Origin: an uncultured Alphaproteobacteria bacterium
Lineage (GTDB): Bacteria > Pseudomonadota > Alphaproteobacteria > Micavibrionales > Micavibrionaceae
Assembly (NCBI GenBank): GCA_937923625.1
Contig: CALDTV010000008.1
Span: 1-46,664, forward strand
Direction of reading: 5' to 3'
DNA: 46,664 nucleotides
The number at the start of each line of letters is the position of its first letter. The first letter of the stretch is position 1. Of the stretch, positions 27,372 to 39,102 are shown in pieces. The translations under genes were made by a program, and so were the position numbers. The notes below the pieces were generated by a model that saw only the letters and a program-made list of their open reading frames with translations, was not told the origin of the DNA and ran no database searches.

Positions 27372-30300
27372 ATGCCGGGAAGTTATACGATTGAGTTAGA
27401 ATTATTCAGCTTGCTGAATGGCAGTGTTGATGGTTTTGAGATCTATGCCGATGGCTCGTTGCTTGGGGGCTATAGCTCTATTGTTTCTTCGGCGGGATCA
27501 TCAATCTCTCTTACAATCTCATATGGCGGTGCCCTTCCAAGCTCCTTGGAATTTAGATTTAATGATACGGCTCCTGGCTCAACAGACAGAATAGAAATTC
27601 GCTCTGTTAAAATTAATGATAAATACGTCAATACTGGAAATTTCCTCTCAACGGATACGTTAAATGATGGCCAAACCGCAACAGTCGATGTAACAACGGC
27701 TGATTTTATTTTTGATGACAGCGAGCCAGCAGGATCAGAATTCACCACAGGCGCAACCCAAACTTTCACGACAGGCGCAGACAGATATCGCGGCCAGAAC
27801 GGCAGCAGTGATGAAGTATTTGATCTTTTAGACGGCAATGACAATGCCTACCTAGGTTCAGGCAATGACAAAGTTAATGGCGGCGCAGGGAACGATACCA
27901 TACGTGCAGGTGATGGAAATGATTTGGTTTCCGGCGGTGCGGGTAATGACCGTCTTTTTGGACAAGATGGCAATGACCAAATATATGGCGGTATAGGAAG
28001 AGACATCTTATTCGGCAACGATGGCGATGATGAGCTTTATGGCGGTGATGGAAATGATGCCTTAAGCGGACACAACGGTGAAGATTTACTCGTTGGTGGC
28101 AGCGGCAATGATCGTTTAAATGGCGGCGCAAATGATGATCAATTATTTGGCGGTGGCGACGATGATTTACTTGTTGGCGGCGCAGGAAACGATACGTTAG
28201 ATGGCGGCGATGGTGTTGATACAATTTTAGGCGGCCTTGGCGACGATATCATCAATGGCGGTGATGGTGCAGATAGAATTGTCGGAAGCCTTGGCGTTGA
28301 TATTATTCATGGCGACGCGGGTAATGATGCAATTTTTCTTTCTGGGAATGATTACGTTTCTGGCGAAGAAATTTATGGCGGTACAGGTATAGATGAGCTT
28401 GTTTTATCCAGTACAATGACCGTTGATTTTACAACAGGCGTCCTTGATGGCTTGGAAACACTTCGGGGCTCAGACGCCGACCAAGATGTCACCTATAACT
28501 TAGAACAAGCTTTAAACTTTACTACAATCAACTTTGCAGGCGGCAACGATACAAGTCGTATTCAAGTTTCAGGGAACGTGGATGCCACAGCCTTGGGCAC
28601 TCCCACAGTCACCAACGTTGAAAATGGATTTTTAACCGGATCAGCTGCAGATGATACGCTGACGATTTCTGGCGGGCAACTTGATGCGATTATATTTGGC
28701 GCAGGCACGATTGATTTTGGCGGTGGCACAGGGGATACACTCAATCTTACATCTGCCTCAACTGATTTGATCGCCTTGGCTGCAACAGATAGTAACCTTC
28801 AAGGATTAGAAGAGATTAATTTCTCAACAGCGGCAGGCGCAGCCACTTTAGATTTAACATCTCAAACCGAAGATTTTACCATCACAGGCTCTACGAATAA
28901 CGATAACCTTACGGCAGGCTTGGGAAGTGATACGATTGATGGCGGCGCAGGTGATGATACAATTGAGGGTGGTGCAGGCGATGATATCATTTACGGCGAT
29001 GGCGAAACAGAAATTCTTAATCAAATCACAAATTTAACGACGGGCAACTATGGCTTTATCGTTGGCGATGTCGCACAAAATTTTTATGTTGATTTTGATG
29101 GGACTGATTACTGGTTATTGGTTGGACGTGGACGCGAAGGGTGGGAATTCGATACGGATGGGCAAGGAAACCCAGCAGATGTCATTAATAATTTAGGATC
29201 AACAGCCGCGTTCGCGCCTGCAGCATATAGTGATACATTCGTGAACGACATTATTGGTCAAACAGCCAATACAGATCTAACCGATGTTGAAATTCGGATC
29301 AAACGTGCTGCAGATATAACAGGAACAAATTATCAGGAAGTAAGATGGAATTCAGTTTCTGAAACAGATTGGACATGGGACTTCGACGACAATCAATATA
29401 ACGTCTCCCACGAAGTACAGGCTTCAGTTTTAGGAGCGTCAGCAACACCCATTGTTGAGGACACACGTGATACGTTAAATTCTTCTGCTAACAACCACGA
29501 ACGCATTTTCACATGGGGTTGGGACGGACATAACTTTGAAAGGGGTTTTTCCTATGGCATAAGTATTGCTGGCGTAGATGGCGATGATCCGAACACATTT
29601 CTATGGGAAAATGCGAATGAAAATCATGCCATACCTTACACCGAAGTTTATATCCGCTTAGAAAATCCCATTAGTAGCGTTATCACAGGGAACGACACGA
29701 TCACTGGCGGTCTTGGTGCTGATATCATTGATGCTGGTGCAGGGAATGACACAATTAATCTTGCAAATGGTGATTTCGAAGCAGGTGAGGCAATCGCTGG
29801 CGGCTCAGGAACAGATGAACTCATCTTAACCAACGCCACAACAATTGATTTTACGACAGGTTCAATAGCGGGTCTTGAAATCCTTACAGGCTCTGCTGGT
29901 AATGATGATGTGACTATAAATATCAATGCGCTCGGACAATTTACAACAGTAGATCTAGGTGCAGGTACAGGAGATATAATAAGTACACAAATTAACGGTA
30001 TTTACAACGCAGTTACCGATGGTGTGCCAACAGTGACGAATGTAGAAAATGGTTTTCTTGTGGGCTCTGCCAATGCAGACACATTGGTTGCAGGTGAAAC
30101 AGAATTATCAAGCCTGATTTATGGCACGGGTACAATTGATTTTGGTGGCAACATTAATGACACCCTAACGCTGACAGAAACATCAAGCACATTAAACGCT
30201 TTGGGCGCAACGGATGGGGGTATTTTGAACCTTGAAATTGTAAATGCAACAACTGCGTTAGCCCCTGTAACCATTGACCTAAACGGCCAAAGCGAAGCAT

Positions 30301-32330
30301 TCACGGTAAATGCATCAAATAATGGTGACGACATTACAACAGGTAGTGGTGCAGACACCATTAACGGCGGAACAGCGGCAGATATTTTAACTGGTAATGC
30401 GGGTGCTGATACAATTAATGGTGGTGATGGAAATGATATAATTTATGCCAGTATTGGCACGGCCACTGATATTCTTAATCTTAACTTCGATAGCGGTCTA
30501 GACGGATTTGTCTACGCTGATGATATATTCCTTAATGCAAATCAAGCCGCCTACGCCAGTGGTGCGCGCATCACTAATGATGGCGGCATTACTAACGGAG
30601 CACTTGAGATAACTCTTGGAGGAATTGATGGAAATGATGTTGGCCCAATTTCTGGTGCATTTCAAAATAGCTTTGTCCTCACCTCTTCAATGACCGATGT
30701 TTCGCTTACTTTTTCTTACAGGGCGTTAAATTCCGGTGGAGCACCTTTTGAAATAAATGAAGATTTATTTTTGTTCGCGTCACTTGATGATCGCCTTCTT
30801 AGTAACAGCGCTGATGACTTTTTTGATTCACAGAACAATCCGATTGCGAATTTTGACACAGGCGCAACCTATCGTACAATCACTTTAGATTTAGGGGACT
30901 TAAACGCAGGCAGTCATACTCTCTCCTTAGGCGGCGCAATAAGCTTCAAAACAGAGGCTGGCGAAGAAGTAGAACTGCGCTTCGATGATTTAATCTTGAC
31001 TGGAACTGAAGTCGGTGACGTTGGCGTAACAAATATTCTTAACGGTGATGCTGGCGACGACATTATAACAGCCGGTGACGGCAACGACGTCATTGATGGC
31101 GGTGCAGATAATGACACTATCAATGGATTAGCCGGCGAAGATACTATAAATGGCGGATCAGGTAATGATTTAATAAATGCAGGTAACAATGACGATGACG
31201 TTGATGGCGGGTCAGGCGATGATGAAATAGATGCAGGTGATGGTGACGATATTGTTGATGGCGGATCAGGCAACGATATTATTAGTGGAGGAGCAGGCAA
31301 CGATATTCTCAGAGGTGGAGCCAACAATGATACAATATACGGTATCAGCGCACAAAACTCATCTTTATCCAATGCTACGAGCATATTGGTAAGTGATCTG
31401 TTCAGTGCTTCCTTCGAGGTAGACACAGAAGGATTTGTTTATGCGGATGGTGTTTTTGGTAGTGATGGCCCAGCATCTGATGCTGTCGCCGATGGAAGCT
31501 TTACGGCTTTAGATGGTAATACAACAGGCTCAAACAATGGGTCACTTGAAATTATCTTGGGAGGTAATGCAGGCGCAGTCAATAATATATCTGGCGCGTT
31601 TCAAGAAACAATCAATTTTGCCACTGCACAAACAAATGTTGTACTTACATTTGCTTACCGCGCTCTAGATAATATCGTTGATGGCGATCCATTTGATGCT
31701 AACGAAGATCTACAGCTTTTTGCGGATATTAATGGCACTAGCTATAGTAATGATGCAAATCCATATTTCTTTGAAATACTGGGAACAGCAGCAGGTACAT
31801 CATTTGATACAGGGTGGCAAACTATTTCCCTTAATGTAGGAAATTTGGCAGCGGGCAATCATACAATATCATTGGGCGCAAATTTATCGAGAAAAACTTT
31901 TGCTTCAGAACAATACGCCATCAGGTTTGATGATATTAATTTTGAATCAGACACAAGCGGAGTCGTTGCGGGAACAAATACGGGAACAACGAATACGCTA
32001 TATGGTGAAGACGGCTTAGACACGTTATTCGGTAGTACTGAGACAGATATATTTATCTTAGAGAGTAGCACTGCTTTTAACGATATAGATATCATCGAGA
32101 ACTTTAATATTAGTGAAGCTGACGCGATTGATATCAGTGATCTGTTAACAGGCTTTAACGGAAATATTTCTGAATATGTTCAACTCGTTGATAGCGGCAA
32201 TGATACCTTACTTCAGGTTGACAGCAATGGGACTGCAGGCGGCGCTGCGTTCACAACCGTTGCGCAGCTAAATAATTTTTCTGGCATTGATGAGGTTACA
32301 CTGTTCAACATTGGGAACATCATCGCTTAA
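27372..32330 (+). CDS. Giant RTX-type secreted protein with duplicated lectin-like modules
   Basis: A 1652-aa protein; AGAGGGA precedes the ATG. Residues about 1-75 resemble a Ca-dependent carbohydrate-binding module (FEIYADGSLLGG). A long block of GGxGxDxLx RTX repeats fills about 158-316, with shorter blocks near 510-545, 773-796, 990-1027, 1220-1325 and 1540-1567. Between them are two copies of module A (about 333-510 and 806-990, sharing DFTTG and PTVTNVENGFL), one unique segment (about 548-768, YWLLVGRGREGWEF) and two copies of module B (about 1036-1212 and 1343-1526, sharing GFVYAD, ISGAFQ and RFDD). The last 85 residues match the type I secretion target domain (NISEADAIDISDLL). No signal peptide and no T1SS genes are nearby. 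It is probably a calcium-dependent adhesin. Confidence 0.92.
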   Translation: MPGSYTIELELFSLLNGSVDGFEIYADGSLLGGYSSIVSSAGSSISLTISYGGALPSSLEFRFNDTAPGSTDRIEIRSVKINDKYVNTGNFLSTDTLNDGQTATVDVTTADFIFDDSEPAGSEFTTGATQTFTTGADRYRGQNGSSDEVFDLLDGNDNAYLGSGNDKVNGGAGNDTIRAGDGNDLVSGGAGNDRLFGQDGNDQIYGGIGRDILFGNDGDDELYGGDGNDALSGHNGEDLLVGGSGNDRLNGGANDDQLFGGGDDDLLVGGAGNDTLDGGDGVDTILGGLGDDIINGGDGADRIVGSLGVDIIHGDAGNDAIFLSGNDYVSGEEIYGGTGIDELVLSSTMTVDFTTGVLDGLETLRGSDADQDVTYNLEQALNFTTINFAGGNDTSRIQVSGNVDATALGTPTVTNVENGFLTGSAADDTLTISGGQLDAIIFGAGTIDFGGGTGDTLNLTSASTDLIALAATDSNLQGLEEINFSTAAGAATLDLTSQTEDFTITGSTNNDNLTAGLGSDTIDGGAGDDTIEGGAGDDIIYGDGETEILNQITNLTTGNYGFIVGDVAQNFYVDFDGTDYWLLVGRGREGWEFDTDGQGNPADVINNLGSTAAFAPAAYSDTFVNDIIGQTANTDLTDVEIRIKRAADITGTNYQEVRWNSVSETDWTWDFDDNQYNVSHEVQASVLGASATPIVEDTRDTLNSSANNHERIFTWGWDGHNFERGFSYGISIAGVDGDDPNTFLWENANENHAIPYTEVYIRLENPISSVITGNDTITGGLGADIIDAGAGNDTINLANGDFEAGEAIAGGSGTDELILTNATTIDFTTGSIAGLEILTGSAGNDDVTININALGQFTTVDLGAGTGDIISTQINGIYNAVTDGVPTVTNVENGFLVGSANADTLVAGETELSSLIYGTGTIDFGGNINDTLTLTETSSTLNALGATDGGILNLEIVNATTALAPVTIDLNGQSEAFTVNASNNGDDITTGSGADTINGGTAADILTGNAGADTINGGDGNDIIYASIGTATDILNLNFDSGLDGFVYADDIFLNANQAAYASGARITNDGGITNGALEITLGGIDGNDVGPISGAFQNSFVLTSSMTDVSLTFSYRALNSGGAPFEINEDLFLFASLDDRLLSNSADDFFDSQNNPIANFDTGATYRTITLDLGDLNAGSHTLSLGGAISFKTEAGEEVELRFDDLILTGTEVGDVGVTNILNGDAGDDIITAGDGNDVIDGGADNDTINGLAGEDTINGGSGNDLINAGNNDDDVDGGSGDDEIDAGDGDDIVDGGSGNDIISGGAGNDILRGGANNDTIYGISAQNSSLSNATSILVSDLFSASFEVDTEGFVYADGVFGSDGPASDAVADGSFTALDGNTTGSNNGSLEIILGGNAGAVNNISGAFQETINFATAQTNVVLTFAYRALDNIVDGDPFDANEDLQLFADINGTSYSNDANPYFFEILGTAAGTSFDTGWQTISLNVGNLAAGNHTISLGANLSRKTFASEQYAIRFDDINFESDTSGVVAGTNTGTTNTLYGEDGLDTLFGSTETDIFILESSTAFNDIDIIENFNISEADAIDISDLLTGFNGNISEYVQLVDSGNDTLLQVDSNGTAGGAAFTTVAQLNNFSGIDEVTLFNIGNIIA

Positions 32331-32441: not shown

Positions 32442-34013
32442 TTACGCAAATAATCCAGAAGAATTTCCGAATAGAGATAAAATACTTTGCTGACTTTGGC
32501 TTCCCAGACTTAGCGCGGTGGTTCCCAATGAAATGCGCGTTTGCGAAGCAAGTAAATTTGCCCCTTCTTCTGCTTGATCAGCAATTAAAAGATCCATCGC
32601 GCCAGATTTATGATTATTAATAAGATTACGCGAAAAATCTTGACGCGTTTCTATGATGTTCAAATCATTAGCCAATGATGTGCCATACTCACGCACGTCT
32701 GCAATCGCTTGACGAATACGGTTGATAGCATCTTCAACCTGTGATGGTTTTTGAAAATTAATATCATCTAAACCTAATGACTTAATACTAAATGCTTCTC
32801 CATCAACTTTTAATTTGCTCTTATTATCTTGATCAAATTTAACGACAAGATCTTCTTTGTTCAATAAATTGACACCACGATATTGTGTGTCTTCAACAAC
32901 TCCTTGTATCTGTTCCAAAAACACCTGCATATCTTGGCGGAAAGATTCAGACAAAGGTAAGGATGTTGCCTCGTACCTTTCTTGTAATTCAGCTTGCGGG
33001 ATAATCGAATTATAAATAGCAAGGTCAGAAATTTGTCCGGTAAAAGCAAACGTCCCATTGCCACGCGCTGGCGCATTCCCCGGTCCGTCATCATGAAAAT
33101 AAAGATTTTGGTTAATTGCGCCAATACCATTCGCATTCGGGTGGTTTCCAATGAACGCGCCACCAAGATCCTCTGATCCAAACGCTTCACCATTTAGATA
33201 TCCTGTAAAACGGCTATTTGGGCCATCTTGCGTAAAGGCAACGTGATAACTTTCACCCGCGTTAATTGGCACACTAATATCTAACGGGCCATACCCGCCA
33301 TTCGAGGTTGTACGCCCCGTTACGCGCAACAAACCATCATCAATATAAATACTTAAGCTGTTAACCGTTCCCCCCTCTTCCCACAGAACTTGGCGTCCAG
33401 CGGTGCTATCCGCATTAAAGATCAATTCCACGGTCCGTTCGGGGAATGGTCCTCCTTGGTTGATAGAGTCATCGTTAGGAACAGCGACATATTGCCCTGA
33501 GCCACTAAATTTTGCCGGTAAGCCACCCGCGCCGTAAAACAAAATTTCATCGCCTTGCGTGACGCCATTTTGATAAATACCATCACCCCCAGCGCCCAAC
33601 GTTCCTAAATTGACAGCCGTCGCCCCGTCTGCATCCCCTAAGCGGAAATAGCCAACAGGCGCATCTTCTAAAATAGCATCGGGCAAGGCGGATCCTGTTT
33701 TTTCTAAGGTATCGCGTGCTTCAATCGCTTTTAACTCTGCAAGATTTAAAATATTTTCCAACGTTTCTGTACCAGCAACGGCCTGACGAATTGTTTGTAC
33801 CCCAAGACTGAGGCCGTCTAAGAGTTTACTATAATCATTTGCACGATTTGTGAGCGAAGCGGCGGTGAAAAAGTTTGTGGGTTGGTCAGTAATATCGTTG
33901 ACCCTAAGCCCCGTCGCCAAACGCTCTGACGTTTTGTCAGCAGAAAGCCTCGACTGCTGAATGCTAGTCAAAGTTGTTTTCATTGCTGCGCCTAGGACGA
34001 TCCTATCAACCAT
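32442..34013 (-). CDS. Flagellin with inserted LamG/concanavalin A-like domain
   Basis: A 523-aa protein. Residues 1-108 are the flagellin D0/D1 N-terminal helices (SADKTSERLATGLRVND, ANDYSKLLDGLSLGVQTIRQA). Residues about 352-523 are the C-terminal half (EYGTSLANDLNIIETRQDFSRN, ending GTTALSLGSQSQQSILSLF). Between them, residues about 112-347 read as a LamG/laminin-like jelly roll: VGYFRLGD, YVAVPNDDSIN, YHVAFTQDG, GYLNG, and the closing FTGQISDLAIYN typical of LamG_3. The filament would display a lectin-like domain on its surface. A sigma-54 promoter lies upstream. No other flagellar gene is in the window. Confidence 0.9.
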   Translation of the reverse strand: MVDRIVLGAAMKTTLTSIQQSRLSADKTSERLATGLRVNDITDQPTNFFTAASLTNRANDYSKLLDGLSLGVQTIRQAVAGTETLENILNLAELKAIEARDTLEKTGSALPDAILEDAPVGYFRLGDADGATAVNLGTLGAGGDGIYQNGVTQGDEILFYGAGGLPAKFSGSGQYVAVPNDDSINQGGPFPERTVELIFNADSTAGRQVLWEEGGTVNSLSIYIDDGLLRVTGRTTSNGGYGPLDISVPINAGESYHVAFTQDGPNSRFTGYLNGEAFGSEDLGGAFIGNHPNANGIGAINQNLYFHDDGPGNAPARGNGTFAFTGQISDLAIYNSIIPQAELQERYEATSLPLSESFRQDMQVFLEQIQGVVEDTQYRGVNLLNKEDLVVKFDQDNKSKLKVDGEAFSIKSLGLDDINFQKPSQVEDAINRIRQAIADVREYGTSLANDLNIIETRQDFSRNLINNHKSGAMDLLIADQAEEGANLLASQTRISLGTTALSLGSQSQQSILSLFGNSSGLFA

Positions 34014-34058: not shown

Positions 34059-34074
34059 AGCAATATGTGTGCCA
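34059..34074 (-). promoter_or_regulatory. Sigma-54 promoter of the flagellin gene
   Basis: On the minus strand TGGCACACATATTGCT matches the -24/-12 consensus TGGCAC-N5-TTGC with exact GG-N10-GC spacing. It lies 46 bp upstream of the flagellin ATG, so transcription would start near 34048 with a leader of about 35 bases. Sigma-54 control of flagellins is well known in Caulobacter and relatives. Confidence 0.85.
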
Positions 34075-34470: not shown

Positions 34471-35217
34471 ATGATCAATCTATCCAGCTTTCCAAGTAAT
34501 CTTAATATTATTATTTTTGGCGCCTCTGGCGGTATTGGCGGCGCTTTCGTCGATCATCTTGCGAAACATGAGAATGTGGACAAAATTCACGCCATATCAC
34601 GCGGTGAGCAAACCTATGACAGCAATAAAATAATCCCGCATTTTGCAGATATAACCCAAGAGGCCTCTTTAGAGGAACTTGCTGAAAAAATAGGTAAGAA
34701 TCCGCCGCTTGATATCATTATCGTTGCAACAGGCATGTTACATGACACAAACGGAACAACGCCTGAAAAAAGCTTACGGGACATAAATACGAATAATTTT
34801 GAAAAAATATTCAGCATTAATACACATGCCCCGGCACTGATTATGAAGTATTTTTTGCCTATGCTAAACCGTGAAACAAAATCTGTTTTTGCCGCGCTAT
34901 CTGCCCGTGTTGGCAGTATCTCTGACAATCAGCTTGGCGGCTGGTATAGCTATCGTGCGTCTAAGGCTGCGCTTAATATGTTGATTAAAAATGCCTCTAT
35001 TGAAGTGGCACGCCGTCAGAAAAATGCTTGTATCATAGGCCTGCACCCCGGGACGGTTGAGACCAATCTATCTGCGCCTTTTCAAAGCAATGTTCCATCA
35101 AAAAAATTATTTACACCTGAATTTTCAACACAGCAGATGCTTCATGTCATCAATGATGTAACAAGTGATAATAGCGGTAACCTTTTTGCCTATGATGGCG
35201 AAATTATTCCTGTATAA
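34471..35217 (+). CDS. Short-chain dehydrogenase/reductase
   Basis: A 248-aa SDR. The cofactor motif is IFGASGGIGGAF (residues 15-26), and catalytic Ser and YxxxK are in SARVG and WYSYRASKAALN. The segment IGLHPGTVETNLSAPF and the closing DGEIIPV resemble the C-factor (CsgA)-like SDR group. It is an NAD(P)-dependent oxidoreductase of unknown substrate in the cytoplasm. It is the first of four closely packed plus-strand genes, 13 bp before the MTA phosphorylase. Confidence 0.88.
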   Translation: MINLSSFPSNLNIIIFGASGGIGGAFVDHLAKHENVDKIHAISRGEQTYDSNKIIPHFADITQEASLEELAEKIGKNPPLDIIIVATGMLHDTNGTTPEKSLRDINTNNFEKIFSINTHAPALIMKYFLPMLNRETKSVFAALSARVGSISDNQLGGWYSYRASKAALNMLIKNASIEVARRQKNACIIGLHPGTVETNLSAPFQSNVPSKKLFTPEFSTQQMLHVINDVTSDNSGNLFAYDGEIIPV

Positions 35218-35230
35218 TAACGGAGCAAGC

Positions 35231-36091
35231 ATGGCACAAGAACATTTGGCAATTATTGGCGGCACAGGCCTCTATCAATTAGAGAGCTTAAGTAACGTGC
35301 AAGAACATATCGTTAACACCCCTTTCGGGAAGCCGTCTGCGCCCATCATAGAGGCAAAAATAGGTGATCAAGCCATTTTATTTTTACCCCGTCATGGCCG
35401 CTCACACGAATTCTTACCCCATGAAGTAAATTATCGTGCAAATATTTATGCTCTCAAAAAATTAGGCGCGCGTTCTATTCTAAGTATCTCAGCAACAGGT
35501 TCTTTGCGAGAGGATTTAGCTCCTGGCACCATGGCATTGGTATCACAATATTTTGATCATACCCGTGGTAAACGTGATTACAGCTTTTTTGGCAATGGCG
35601 TCAGCGGACATATCATGGCGGCAAAGCCCACCTGCCCCGCTCTTGCAGATGATATTATCAACGTCGCAAAGCAGCATGACATTGCACTACATACAAACAC
35701 AACCTACGCTTGCGTTGAAGGTCCGCGCCTCGGCACACAAGCGGAGAGCTTTTTTCTTAAAAATGCTGTGAAGGCTGACTTGGTTGGGATGACAAATGTT
35801 CCTGAGGCTTTCCTTGCGCGTGAAGCGCAAATGGGTTACGTCACGCTTGGGATTGTGACAGATTACGATTGCTGGATGGAAGATGAAACACGGCATGCCG
35901 ATATGGCTGATATATTTCGTATCTACGGGGAAACTATTTCAAAAGTAAAACTCATTATAGAAACACTTGGTCATAGTGGTATATCTCAAGCACCTGATTG
36001 GATCCGCAACGCCATTCAACATGCTGTCATGACTCCAGAAGAGAAATTATCAAGCGATCAAAAAGAATGGTTGAGTGTTCTTCGTGCCTAA
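35231..36091 (+). CDS. mtnP: S-methyl-5'-thioadenosine phosphorylase-like protein
   Basis: A 286-aa protein from the ATG at 35231 (GGAG spaced correctly; longer upstream frame rejected because it runs into the SDR gene). Motifs of the MTAP/PNP family: IIGGTGLYQLESL, LPRHGRSHEFLPHEVNYRAN, CVEGPRLGTQAE, DLVGMTNVPEAFLAREAQMGY and VTDYDCW. It splits methylthioadenosine, or a related 5'-deoxyadenosine derivative, with phosphate into adenine and a sugar 1-phosphate. It is embedded with transferase and radical-SAM genes, so the physiological substrate may be a modified deoxyadenosine rather than MTA. Confidence 0.9.
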   Translation: MAQEHLAIIGGTGLYQLESLSNVQEHIVNTPFGKPSAPIIEAKIGDQAILFLPRHGRSHEFLPHEVNYRANIYALKKLGARSILSISATGSLREDLAPGTMALVSQYFDHTRGKRDYSFFGNGVSGHIMAAKPTCPALADDIINVAKQHDIALHTNTTYACVEGPRLGTQAESFFLKNAVKADLVGMTNVPEAFLAREAQMGYVTLGIVTDYDCWMEDETRHADMADIFRIYGETISKVKLIIETLGHSGISQAPDWIRNAIQHAVMTPEEKLSSDQKEWLSVLRA

Positions 36092-36692
36092 AATTTCCGT
36101 TATCATTCCTCATCACCATGCTGAGTCCGAACATAAAAAACTGATAAGTTTTTTTGAACAATTAAATGATATTGATCTGGAGATTATCCCTACGACAGGA
36201 TCAAGTCGTGCAAATGCCATGAATAACGGAGCCATAAAAGCAAAATATCCATATCTTTGGTTTGTTCATGCTGACACCAATTTACAGCCAACACAGATAA
36301 ACGCGCTTAAAAAATCATTAAGCGATTACCCTAGGCGTATTCATTATTTCGACCTTAAATTTGATGGCGGTTTTTTAACAAAAATAAATGCGATTGGCGC
36401 CAATATTCGCTCTAGAACTCTCAAACTACCATGGGGAGATCAGGCTTTTTGCCTTTCCATCAATAATTTTGAACAACTCGGAAAATTTAATGAAAACGTT
36501 ACATATGGCGAAGATCACTTGCTTATTTGGAAAGCGCATCAAAACAAAATAAAATTAAAGCGTGTTTCCACTGCCATCGTCAGTAGTGCAAGAGAATATA
36601 ACAAACAAGGCTGGTTTAATTTAACCTTAAAACGTCAATATTTATGGCTTAAACAAGCCGCCCCGGAATTTATAAAATGGATAAAATCATGA
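36075..36692 (+). CDS. Family 2 glycosyltransferase, rSAM/selenodomain-associated type 2-like
   Basis: A 205-aa GT-A protein, overlapping the mtnP end by 17 bp. The start is GTG, either at 36075 or at 36084 just before PKISVIIP. Motifs: ISVIIPHHHAE, TTGSSRANAMNNGA, the metal/sugar-binding LWFVHADTNL, and GDQAFCLS; TYGEDHLLIW holds the acidic base region. Size and motifs match the TIGR04283 group, glycosyltransferases found near radical SAM genes such as arsenosugar loci. Acceptor and donor are unknown. It lies in the cytoplasm or at the membrane face. Confidence 0.85.
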   Translation: MFFVPKISVIIPHHHAESEHKKLISFFEQLNDIDLEIIPTTGSSRANAMNNGAIKAKYPYLWFVHADTNLQPTQINALKKSLSDYPRRIHYFDLKFDGGFLTKINAIGANIRSRTLKLPWGDQAFCLSINNFEQLGKFNENVTYGEDHLLIWKAHQNKIKLKRVSTAIVSSAREYNKQGWFNLTLKRQYLWLKQAAPEFIKWIKS

Positions 36693-37348
36693 GCAAAAAT
36701 GTTATTGCTGTTTTTGCAAAAACACCAACTTTAAGCCCCGTTAAAACACGGCTTGCCGCAACTATTGGTAAAGAAAAAGCTGCTGAGATATATAAAATTT
36801 GTGTTGATTGCGCCCAAATGACATTTGAAACATTTTCCCACCAAAATTCAGACTGGCAGGTTATTTGGGCATTAGGAGAAGAAAATGCCATAGAGCATGA
36901 TTTTTGGCTGAACCGTCCATTTGATAAAATATGGACGGGTGATGGCGCGTTAGGAACACGGCTTCATACTATTTATACAAAGCTCAAGAAAAATCATGAC
37001 GCTGTTGTCTTAACCAGCACAGATAGCCCACAATTATCACCCATAGATTTTGCAAGTGCGGCAGCAGAAATTAAAAGTACGGGCAGTGTTATCGGCCCTG
37101 CGCATGATGGTGGTTATTATTTATTTGGTGACACAGTAAATATTCCCCAAAATCTGTGGGAAGCAGTTCCCTATTCTGTTGAGGACACGCGCGTTGAATT
37201 TTTGAGACTATTAAATAAAGAGATAGCGCACCTGACGAAAAAATCAGATTTAGACACAATTGATGATATTCAAACCATCCTCAATGAAATGCCAGAAAAT
37301 AAAAATAGCGCGCAAGAAAAACTCATAGAAATGTTTAAATCGTTATAG
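36689..37348 (+). CDS. GT-A/nucleotidyltransferase-like protein, rSAM/selenodomain-associated type 1-like
   Basis: A 219-aa protein; I chose the ATG at 36689 because it forms an ATGA overlap with the previous stop. An ATG four codons upstream is possible. Motifs: VIAVFAKTPTLSPVKTRLA, VVLTSTDSPQLSP and VIGPAHDGGYYLFGD, those of the TIGR04282 group (CofC/MobA-like fold). This family almost always pairs with TIGR04283 transferases, as here. It ends by overlapping the convergent metallophosphoesterase-like gene by 14 bp. Confidence 0.87.
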   Translation: MSKNVIAVFAKTPTLSPVKTRLAATIGKEKAAEIYKICVDCAQMTFETFSHQNSDWQVIWALGEENAIEHDFWLNRPFDKIWTGDGALGTRLHTIYTKLKKNHDAVVLTSTDSPQLSPIDFASAAAEIKSTGSVIGPAHDGGYYLFGDTVNIPQNLWEAVPYSVEDTRVEFLRLLNKEIAHLTKKSDLDTIDDIQTILNEMPENKNSAQEKLIEMFKSL

Positions 37349-38168
37349 TTTTTTCTTCCAATGGCTTACCTGTCTGTGATTTTTCATGGTCAGGCAAAAT
37401 ATCTGTTGAGGGCCATAGACCTGTTTGAATTGTTTCCGCATATTCAACCAAGCCATTATCAACCATCACTTTTGCTGCTGTTTCATGATCATATTCTAGC
37501 GCCTGATGGGTGATTTTCCCGTCTGAAATAATGCTATACCATACGCGCGGCGTGCCATCATTCGCAGGCGATCCTATCGCACCTGCATTGTGCCATATTT
37601 TATTATTTATTTTTTTGGTAAATGGAATGCCGCTATGACCAGATAAAATAATATCGACATCTAACTTTTCAAATTGTTTTTGAAAAATATGCTCTGATGT
37701 TGTGGGGAAAATAAATTCATTTACCTCATCCACAGATCCATGAAGCACATGATATTTTTTTCCCTCATGTTGAAATTCAATGCGCGTGGGTAATTCTCCC
37801 ATCCATGTTGCTAAATCTTCTGTTATTTGCGCTTTACAAAAATTATACCATTTCGCAGAGAGAATGTTACAGGTACTCGTTTCATCAAAACCACAGCCAC
37901 AGTCATTCTTATCTGCCGCAAGACTCTGCTCACAATTTCCTTGAATAATACGAATACCCGATGATTTTATCAGCTCAGCCGTTTCACGAGGGTTGCCACA
38001 ATAAGCGGTTATATCGCCCGTACAAATTATATTAGAATCGCGAAACCCTAGAGTTTCTGCGTGTTTTAAAAGAGCGCTGGTTGCCTGTAAATTACTATAA
38101 GGGCCTCCAAAAATTAATAAAGCGCCGCTTAATTCTCCTATATTTTCAACCTTAAATGCTTCAACCAT
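37335..38168 (-). CDS. Metallophosphoesterase-like protein with degenerate first metal motif
   Basis: A 277-aa protein with the calcineurin-like order of motifs: CTGDITAYCGNP (near 49), IIQGNCEQS (near 75), LHGS (His143), LSGHSGIPF (near 175) and HNAGAIGSP (near 193). The usual first motif DxHGN is replaced by FGGPYSNL (residues 20-27), so the first Asp and His ligands are missing, and GNHE reads GNCE. A Cys-rich stretch (NDCGCGF...STC) is near 90-100. Its ATG overlaps the radical SAM stop by 8 bp (coupled translation). It may bind metal differently or act on an unusual substrate. Confidence 0.82.
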   Translation of the reverse strand: MVEAFKVENIGELSGALLIFGGPYSNLQATSALLKHAETLGFRDSNIICTGDITAYCGNPRETAELIKSSGIRIIQGNCEQSLAADKNDCGCGFDETSTCNILSAKWYNFCKAQITEDLATWMGELPTRIEFQHEGKKYHVLHGSVDEVNEFIFPTTSEHIFQKQFEKLDVDIILSGHSGIPFTKKINNKIWHNAGAIGSPANDGTPRVWYSIISDGKITHQALEYDHETAAKVMVDNGLVEYAETIQTGLWPSTDILPDHEKSQTGKPLEEKTITI

Positions 38169-39102
38169 TTTCTTTTACGCTACATGCGCCGCCACCAAGA
38201 ACACAAAATTTTGAGCAATGCGCATGGTTTAAATAAACACGCTTTGTGCTCTCTTTTAATGTTGATGCGAATTCGAATTCTTCTTCATAAGGCAGTAACG
38301 TACAAGCAATCACAGAAGGTTTTTCTTGCCCCTTGCGCTTAACAATCATACGTGAATTTGAACACATGATATCTGATTGTTTTATGCCTAAAATATCCCA
38401 ACATCCTTCCGTTATTTCAGGAACATCCGCACCTTCATCCATTTCGGGGAAGAGTACGAGTGCTGATTTATCGTAAGCATCAAGCTTGATATTATATTTC
38501 TTAAAAAACGCAGCATAGCCATCACGCAGTTCTTGCTCGTCTTCATTCCATCGCGTACGCCCTGCAATATCAATAGTAAAATCGTTATCGGATAACCATT
38601 GCAGGCCTTTCAACATCGGCTCCCACGCGCCTTTTCCACGCTCTTCTTCATGCAAAGATAAATCATAATGATCAACAGATACCCGCATAATAAGCTGCGG
38701 TTTGTATTTTTTATTTATCTCTATGAGTTGATCAGTAAAGCGCATCATCGGGCGCATCGCATTCGTTAACATGATCATATTAAACCCACGCGAGAGAACC
38801 TCTTCCATAATTTTAATCATATCACGATTCATGAATGGCTCACCGCCAGTCACACCAATTTCAGAAGTCCCTAAACCATCATTTTTAATTTCATCAAGAT
38901 AGGCAACGACCTCATCATAAGTAATATAAGAAAGGCGATCATTTTTGGGAGAGGATTCAATGTAACAATTTGCGCACTCAATATTGCAAAGCGTGCCTGA
39001 ATTAATCCAAAGCGTTTCCAACTTCTTCATATCAACAAAGGCGCGCTTTTCACCCTTTGCTGTTACACGGTAATCATCAAATTTTTCTGCTGCTTTAGTC
39101 AC
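38161..39102 (-). CDS. Radical SAM enzyme of unknown product
   Basis: A 313-aa protein. The radical SAM cluster motif CNIECANCY provides Cys39, Cys43 and Cys46; GGEP at residues 86-89 binds SAM. Six further cysteines lie in the last 80 residues (234, 247, 267, 296, 300, 307; HCSKFCVLGGGAC), suggesting an auxiliary FeS cluster as in SPASM/twitch enzymes. The opening LWINSGTLCN and YIESSPKNDRL differ from ArsS, the arsenosugar radical SAM protein. It probably makes a 5'-deoxyadenosyl or rearranged product handled by the neighbouring phosphorylase and transferases (inference). Confidence 0.88.
   Translation of the reverse strand: MTKAAEKFDDYRVTAKGEKRAFVDMKKLETLWINSGTLCNIECANCYIESSPKNDRLSYITYDEVVAYLDEIKNDGLGTSEIGVTGGEPFMNRDMIKIMEEVLSRGFNMIMLTNAMRPMMRFTDQLIEINKKYKPQLIMRVSVDHYDLSLHEEERGKGAWEPMLKGLQWLSDNDFTIDIAGRTRWNEDEQELRDGYAAFFKKYNIKLDAYDKSALVLFPEMDEGADVPEITEGCWDILGIKQSDIMCSNSRMIVKRKGQEKPSVIACTLLPYEEEFEFASTLKESTKRVYLNHAHCSKFCVLGGGACSVKENG

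Follow-up and report, generated by a model that had tools for sequence, protein, structure and literature searches.

The stretch of DNA analysed, here called the window, comprises 46,664 nucleotides of an uncultured alphaproteobacterium of the family Micavibrionaceae. A reading frame of 523 amino acids with the start codon ATG is located on the minus strand at 32442-34013, and its product is a true flagellin that carries a LamG-type lectin module inside the D1 domain. The features of the locus are:

32442..34013, minus strand: flagellin with LamG insert, 523 aa (ORF list, Pfam, AlphaFold)
33702..34013, minus strand: D0 N-terminal helix and ND1a helix, residues 1-104 (Flagellin_N at 12-102; helices 9-34 and 45-104)
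32961..33698, minus strand: LamG / concanavalin-A-like insert with linkers, residues 106-351 (PF13385 at 171-343; AlphaFold; Foldseek)
32442..32960, minus strand: ND1b helix 352-378, beta hairpin 384-407, CD1 helix 423-476, D0 C-terminal helix 480-520 and stop (alignments, AlphaFold)
34060..34074, minus strand: exact sigma54-type -24/-12 element TGGCAC-N5-TTGC, 61 to 47 nt upstream of the ATG (pattern search; weak)
27372..32330, plus strand: RTX protein of 1652 aa, convergent neighbour of the flagellin, context only (16 HemolysinCabind stretches)

The N-terminal D0/D1 part was recognized by Flagellin_N (PF00669) at residues 12-102 (1.1e-8; 35.7 bits, cut-off 26.6) and the insert by Laminin_G_3 (PF13385) at residues 171-343 (6.8e-9; 36.5 bits, cut-off 27.6). 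Flagellin_C (PF00700) matched residues 431-515 below its cut-off (9.7e-4; 19.9 bits, cut-off 23). Together with helices 423-476 and 480-520 and the match of the C-terminal part (334-511) of a profile of 29 LamG flagellins to Caulobacter FljM (69.5 bits, i-E 2e-18), it identifies the C-terminal D1/D0 helical region of a bacterial flagellin. Profiles built from the four flagellins of the own genome, the window gene included, delimited the flagellin core to residues 1-106 and 351-522. A peptidase family, the mark of a flagellinolysin, was absent from the four Pfam families found at E-values up to 1.

The upstream element corresponds to TGGCAC-N5-TTGC, which we take to be the sigma54 -24/-12 consensus, and rpoN is present in the genome. 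With one mismatch allowed, five matches were obtained in the window versus 4.17 expected; the exact pattern occurred twice in the genome, and so did a backwards control. Upstream of flagellin genes, the exact pattern was present in 4 of 73 and the relaxed one in 8 of 73 cases, compared to 3 of 188 other reading frames for both, and five of eight LamG orthologues on the genus level had the relaxed pattern. As a general signal of flagellin genes a sigma54 promoter is weak.

The type I secretion target domain of the convergent RTX protein scored 41.2 bits (cut-off 17.6), and no LamG was found in this protein by Pfam. No flagellar gene was among the nine neighbouring ORFs of the window that were scanned. 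Arsenosugar-biosynthesis-like genes were observed at 35165-39102, all below curated cut-offs: an MTAP-like phosphorylase, TIGR04283 and TIGR04282 glycosyltransferases and an ArsS-like radical SAM protein.

Structure and position of the insert

An AlphaFold model of the full protein, computed from 29 aligned full-length LamG flagellins, reached a mean pLDDT of 83.9 and a pTM of 0.69. In this model the helices and the hairpin listed above flank beta strands at residues 121-334. Modelled alone from an alignment of 49 LamG sequences, the insert reached a pLDDT of 94.2 and a pTM of 0.92. The best Foldseek E-values belonged to jelly rolls from the binding domains of clostridial neurotoxins and from the NTNH partners of these toxins. 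CBM40 sialic-acid modules, pentraxins and trypanosome sialidases were also matched, as was domain 4 of the arabinanase AbnA, which had the highest target TM-score (0.69) among the 50 matches listed. On the sequence level, the LamG flagellin profile of the relatives matched a pentraxin (8.8e-5) and sialidase B (about 2e-4) over the insert. By sequence family and fold, the insert is a complete concanavalin-A-like (LamG) jelly roll of lectin type. A sequence-only reading of the window had described ordinary flagellin ends around a central LamG/concanavalin A-like jelly roll; Pfam, the core profiles, AlphaFold and Foldseek all agree with it. The structural matches of the modelled insert suggest a jelly-roll lectin fold and no particular ligand. 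Fifteen polar or tyrosine columns were at least 85 % identical in the alignment of 49 LamG sequences, e.g., N185, E196, R207, E212 and H291. Sugar binding is plausible, judged from the predicted fold and by analogy to a sister flagellin with a C-type lectin, but LamG domains can also be structural, which counts against a glycan-binding reading.

Insert-free flagellins of order-level relatives (L015, L016, L017; 272-275 aa) aligned straight across the junction. In two comparisons with Caulobacter flagellins, the N-terminal match stopped near residue 102-107 and a second match restarted at 91-94 or 109-112; against Salmonella FliC (1ucu), the part behind the insert spanned residues 99-188 with 88 profile positions. 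These alignments place the module between ND1a and ND1b. The usual site of the outer domains D2/D3, after the ND1b/hairpin part, is without an extra domain, and alignment and AlphaFold model rule it out as the location of the insert. The earlier placement of the insert within D1 holds, with the site corrected to the ND1a-ND1b loop. In a filament, the module would face outward.

This socket is not unique to the order. A class-level search, a sample drawn by one family rather than a census, yielded 31 flagellins, four from this order and 27 from outside. Among the latter, 18 had an insert at ND1a-ND1b, with a length of about 99 to 488 residues, and nine had none. In a Pfam scan of ten outside flagellins with socket inserts, the socket contained DUF1522, Flagellin_IN or nothing named, and in none of the ten a lectin family.

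Occurrence in the order

With profiles spanning the junctions of core and insert, at least 33 LamG flagellin genes were counted among 142 genomes of the order, spread over at least 26 of them, the own genome included. C-type-lectin flagellins numbered at least eight in at least eight of these genomes (in G009 as a frame of 332 aa only) and flagellins with a third module at least 13 in at least 13; any of the three types was present in at least 32 of the 142 genomes. Incomplete genes do not enter these counts, namely the LamG flagellins truncated by the ends of contigs in G007:C81 and G061:C116 and one third-module flagellin in G075. Among the matches listed, there are complete genomes of the order devoid of all three types, e.g., G014. 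On the genus level, nine of ten genomes contained the LamG flagellin; the remaining genome is 77 % complete.

Across the class, a search of 385 genomes at E-values up to 1e-20 revealed the full architecture, among the matches listed, only in G000, G009, G016 and G019. All four belong to this order, which includes Micavibrio, and the own genome is one of them. In at least five genomes outside the order, ORFs of 659-2220 aa matched over the LamG part only. The clade specificity raised by the sequence-only reading is supported by these matches. Among named records, 28 loci on 27 contigs, partly from the same genomes as the set of 142, share the architecture; these are mostly metagenome-assembled genomes of Alphaproteobacteria, several labelled Micavibrio sp. 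or Micavibrionaceae, one Pseudomonadota and one Cytophagales. On the last (L119, WGNT01000012.1), a LamG flagellin is accompanied by another flagellin, 558 aa long; this represents either a mis-binned contig or a transfer.

The recurrence in at least 26 of 142 genomes and at the 28 named loci also settles whether the reading frame could be chimeric, a mis-assembly having been named at the outset as what would overturn the assignment. Nothing was found in favour of a mis-assembly or chance product, the many copies rule it out, and we regard its probability as practically nil.

A family of modular flagellins

The own genome (2.05 Mb, 99.8 % complete) had five Flagellin_N matches, which we read from sequence as four flagellins and a putative FlgL-like protein (L002). 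Of the four, L001 is of the Flagellin_IN type and L003 of the C-type-lectin type; the window gene and L005 (LamG in Pfam, 3.3e-13) are both of the LamG type. L003 matched Lectin_C (PF00059) with 4.4e-9 and contains the EPN and WND motifs of C-type lectins, letters that presumably represent a calcium/mannose-type site. Six such flagellins were found among the own genome and its relatives, and EPN and WND were invariant in all five that were aligned.

By insert, 73 flagellins of the own genome and relatives comprised 33 of the Flagellin_IN type, 21 LamG, six C-type lectin, six with an unnamed beta module, four singletons (Gly_rich_2, another LamG, a short Flagellin_IN and one unnamed) and three without insert; the set consists of Flagellin_N loci and 60 regions chosen among the matches listed, mostly long frames, leaves out FlgL-like proteins and some order-level matches, and hence is no complete census. 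On a core tree calculated by a quick method for 71 of them, two with a short C-terminal match being dropped, the insert types needed ten changes with seven as the least possible number, which indicates mostly inherited insert types with a few swaps or gains. The third beta module, which is about 170 residues long, was observed in L052, L060, L064, L066, L072, L083 and L105, without Pfam match in the four that were scanned. The Gly_rich_2 insert (1.5e-22) of L061:1222-2937, minus strand, occupies the same ND1a-ND1b socket. At L055:2478-3461, plus strand, a C-type-lectin flagellin frame stops at 327 aa with a short core match, possibly a broken gene or an assembly error. The order has modular flagellins, in which one D0/D1 frame with one socket presents alternatively a LamG, a C-type lectin or an unnamed beta module. 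In one respect this makes the lectin interpretation stronger than it was initially, because more than one class of lectin occupies the same socket within a single group of bacteria.

The modules are shared with other large proteins. RTX proteins of relatives (693-1415 aa) carry the LamG subtype of the flagellin, with 36-42 % identity between flagellin and RTX modules in 16 comparisons; HemolysinCabind repeats were present in all five LamG-bearing RTX proteins scanned, one of which also had Lectin_C. The C-type-lectin and third-module profiles likewise matched many large ORFs. In the own genome, Pfam gave three LamG_3 matches, of which the two above cut-off were flagellins, and a single Lectin_C match, also a flagellin. 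A confinement of its lectins to flagellins was nevertheless ruled out by an ORF of 905 aa on contig C24 with a flagellin-type LamG (5e-21) and one of 1726 aa on C22 with the third beta module.

Constraint on insert and core

In seven genomes of the genus, the insert of the LamG flagellin was on average 70 % identical, the core 53 % (N-terminal) and 58 % (C-terminal), and the insert exceeded the core in all 21 genome pairs, which are not independent of each other. The Flagellin_IN paralogue of the same genomes displayed the opposite: 54 % for the insert versus 86 % and 79 % for the core, with the insert above the core in none of the 21 pairs. Among five C-type-lectin flagellins, the insert (66 %) was above both core parts (53 % and 50 %) in nine of ten pairs. 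The LamG insert does not, however, reach the conservation seen in the core of the Flagellin_IN paralogue, so that a fast core accounts for the contrast as much as a slow insert does. Ratios of dN/dS were set aside, the synonymous sites being near saturation (pS 0.63-0.79). A constrained module on a loose core points to ligand binding and a minor role in the filament, although the fast evolution of the core could also reflect a relaxed use of the gene. The earlier expectation of thousands of copies on the flagellum finds no support here: being one of four flagellins, and changing far more rapidly in its core than the Flagellin_IN paralogue does, the window gene more likely encodes a minor filament protein.

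Function of the LamG flagellin

We consider the gene product to be probably a minor flagellin that displays a glycan-binding LamG module at ND1a-ND1b for the recognition of prey or surfaces. After export, the protein would join the Flagellin_IN flagellin in the filament as a minor component, with the module exposed to the medium. There, the module may bind to a glycan of prey cells or of particles, and may aid the swimming cell in recognizing or holding its target. Excerpts of a report on M. aeruginosavorus (PMC3189940) describe a single polar flagellum, flagellar genes that are active during the attack phase and silent after attachment, and a lectin-like domain on one RTX-family protein. Carbohydrate receptors in the interaction of Micavibrio with its prey are attributed there to an early study, and the authors call for further study. 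A wider version of this proposal is quite possible, though we hold it with less than even confidence: a combinatorial lectin flagellum of bacteria of this order, in which a Flagellin_IN flagellin is accompanied by several flagellins presenting different lectin modules at one socket, drawn from a pool common to the RTX adhesins, and which would serve as multivalent glycan sensor or grappling organelle for choosing and holding a target.

The LamG insert may instead be purely structural, an outer domain that binds nothing and gives the filament its shape or stiffness. Outer domains of other flagellins form sheaths and screws that tune motility, according to the relevant parts of PMC8931119, and the same socket accommodates DUF1522 or Flagellin_IN in other Alphaproteobacteria. 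This is unlikely in our view, as different lectin classes occupy the socket and recur in RTX proteins, the LamG is more conserved than the packing core, opposite to the Flagellin_IN paralogue, and EPN/WND are kept in the C-type-lectin flagellins. An evasion of phages or grazers by variation of the filament surface would be in line with the several insert types and the few exchanges or gains seen in the core tree, yet inserts of the same type surpass their core in conservation instead of being hypervariable, for LamG as for C-type lectins, so that escape as the main role is very improbable.

Copy number is where the preferred reading, a minor glycan-binding subunit, overlaps with another, namely a flagellin-derived secreted adhesin or a low-copy protein at the filament tip or near the hook rather than a general subunit. 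The fast D0/D1 core relative to the Flagellin_IN paralogue and the lack of flagellar genes among the scanned neighbours speak for such a protein. The protein has, however, retained the two D0 helices along with the elements of D1, all of them modelled, and at five loci of relatives (L103, L106, L108, L112, L113) the LamG flagellin gene directly precedes a flagellin gene without LamG. We see this alternative as possible, but rather doubtful.

Related systems and implications

Flagellinolysins, as described in portions of PMC5595980 and PMC7643111, likewise carry a foreign functional domain in a flagellin, by which the filament gains a function other than motility. Their metallopeptidase resides in the central hypervariable region, according to the portion of PMC5595980 concerned, whereas here a LamG is located in the ND1a-ND1b loop and sister genes have other lectin classes. 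Flagellins of NCBIfam PRK12688 (e.g., L180, 759 aa, with DUF1522) use the same socket for an extra domain, but the ten scanned flagellins from outside the order had no lectin. Caulobacter FljK-FljN, whose filaments are solved, were the best core sequence matches among solved structures, yet their chains of 270-273 aa have the socket without insert. The LamG-bearing RTX proteins of the order share the LamG subtype, but are RTX repeat proteins and not flagellins. A literature search in open-licence papers found no LamG or C-type-lectin flagellins.

A natural D1 socket for inserts of about 99 to 488 residues is useful for the understanding and the engineering of filaments. Flagellins with lectin modules make the idea that a flagellum reads the surface of the prey directly testable with small purified domains, and this bears on prey recognition by epibiotic predators such as Micavibrio. 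The swimming tail of this relative of Micavibrio may double as a sugar-reading organelle.
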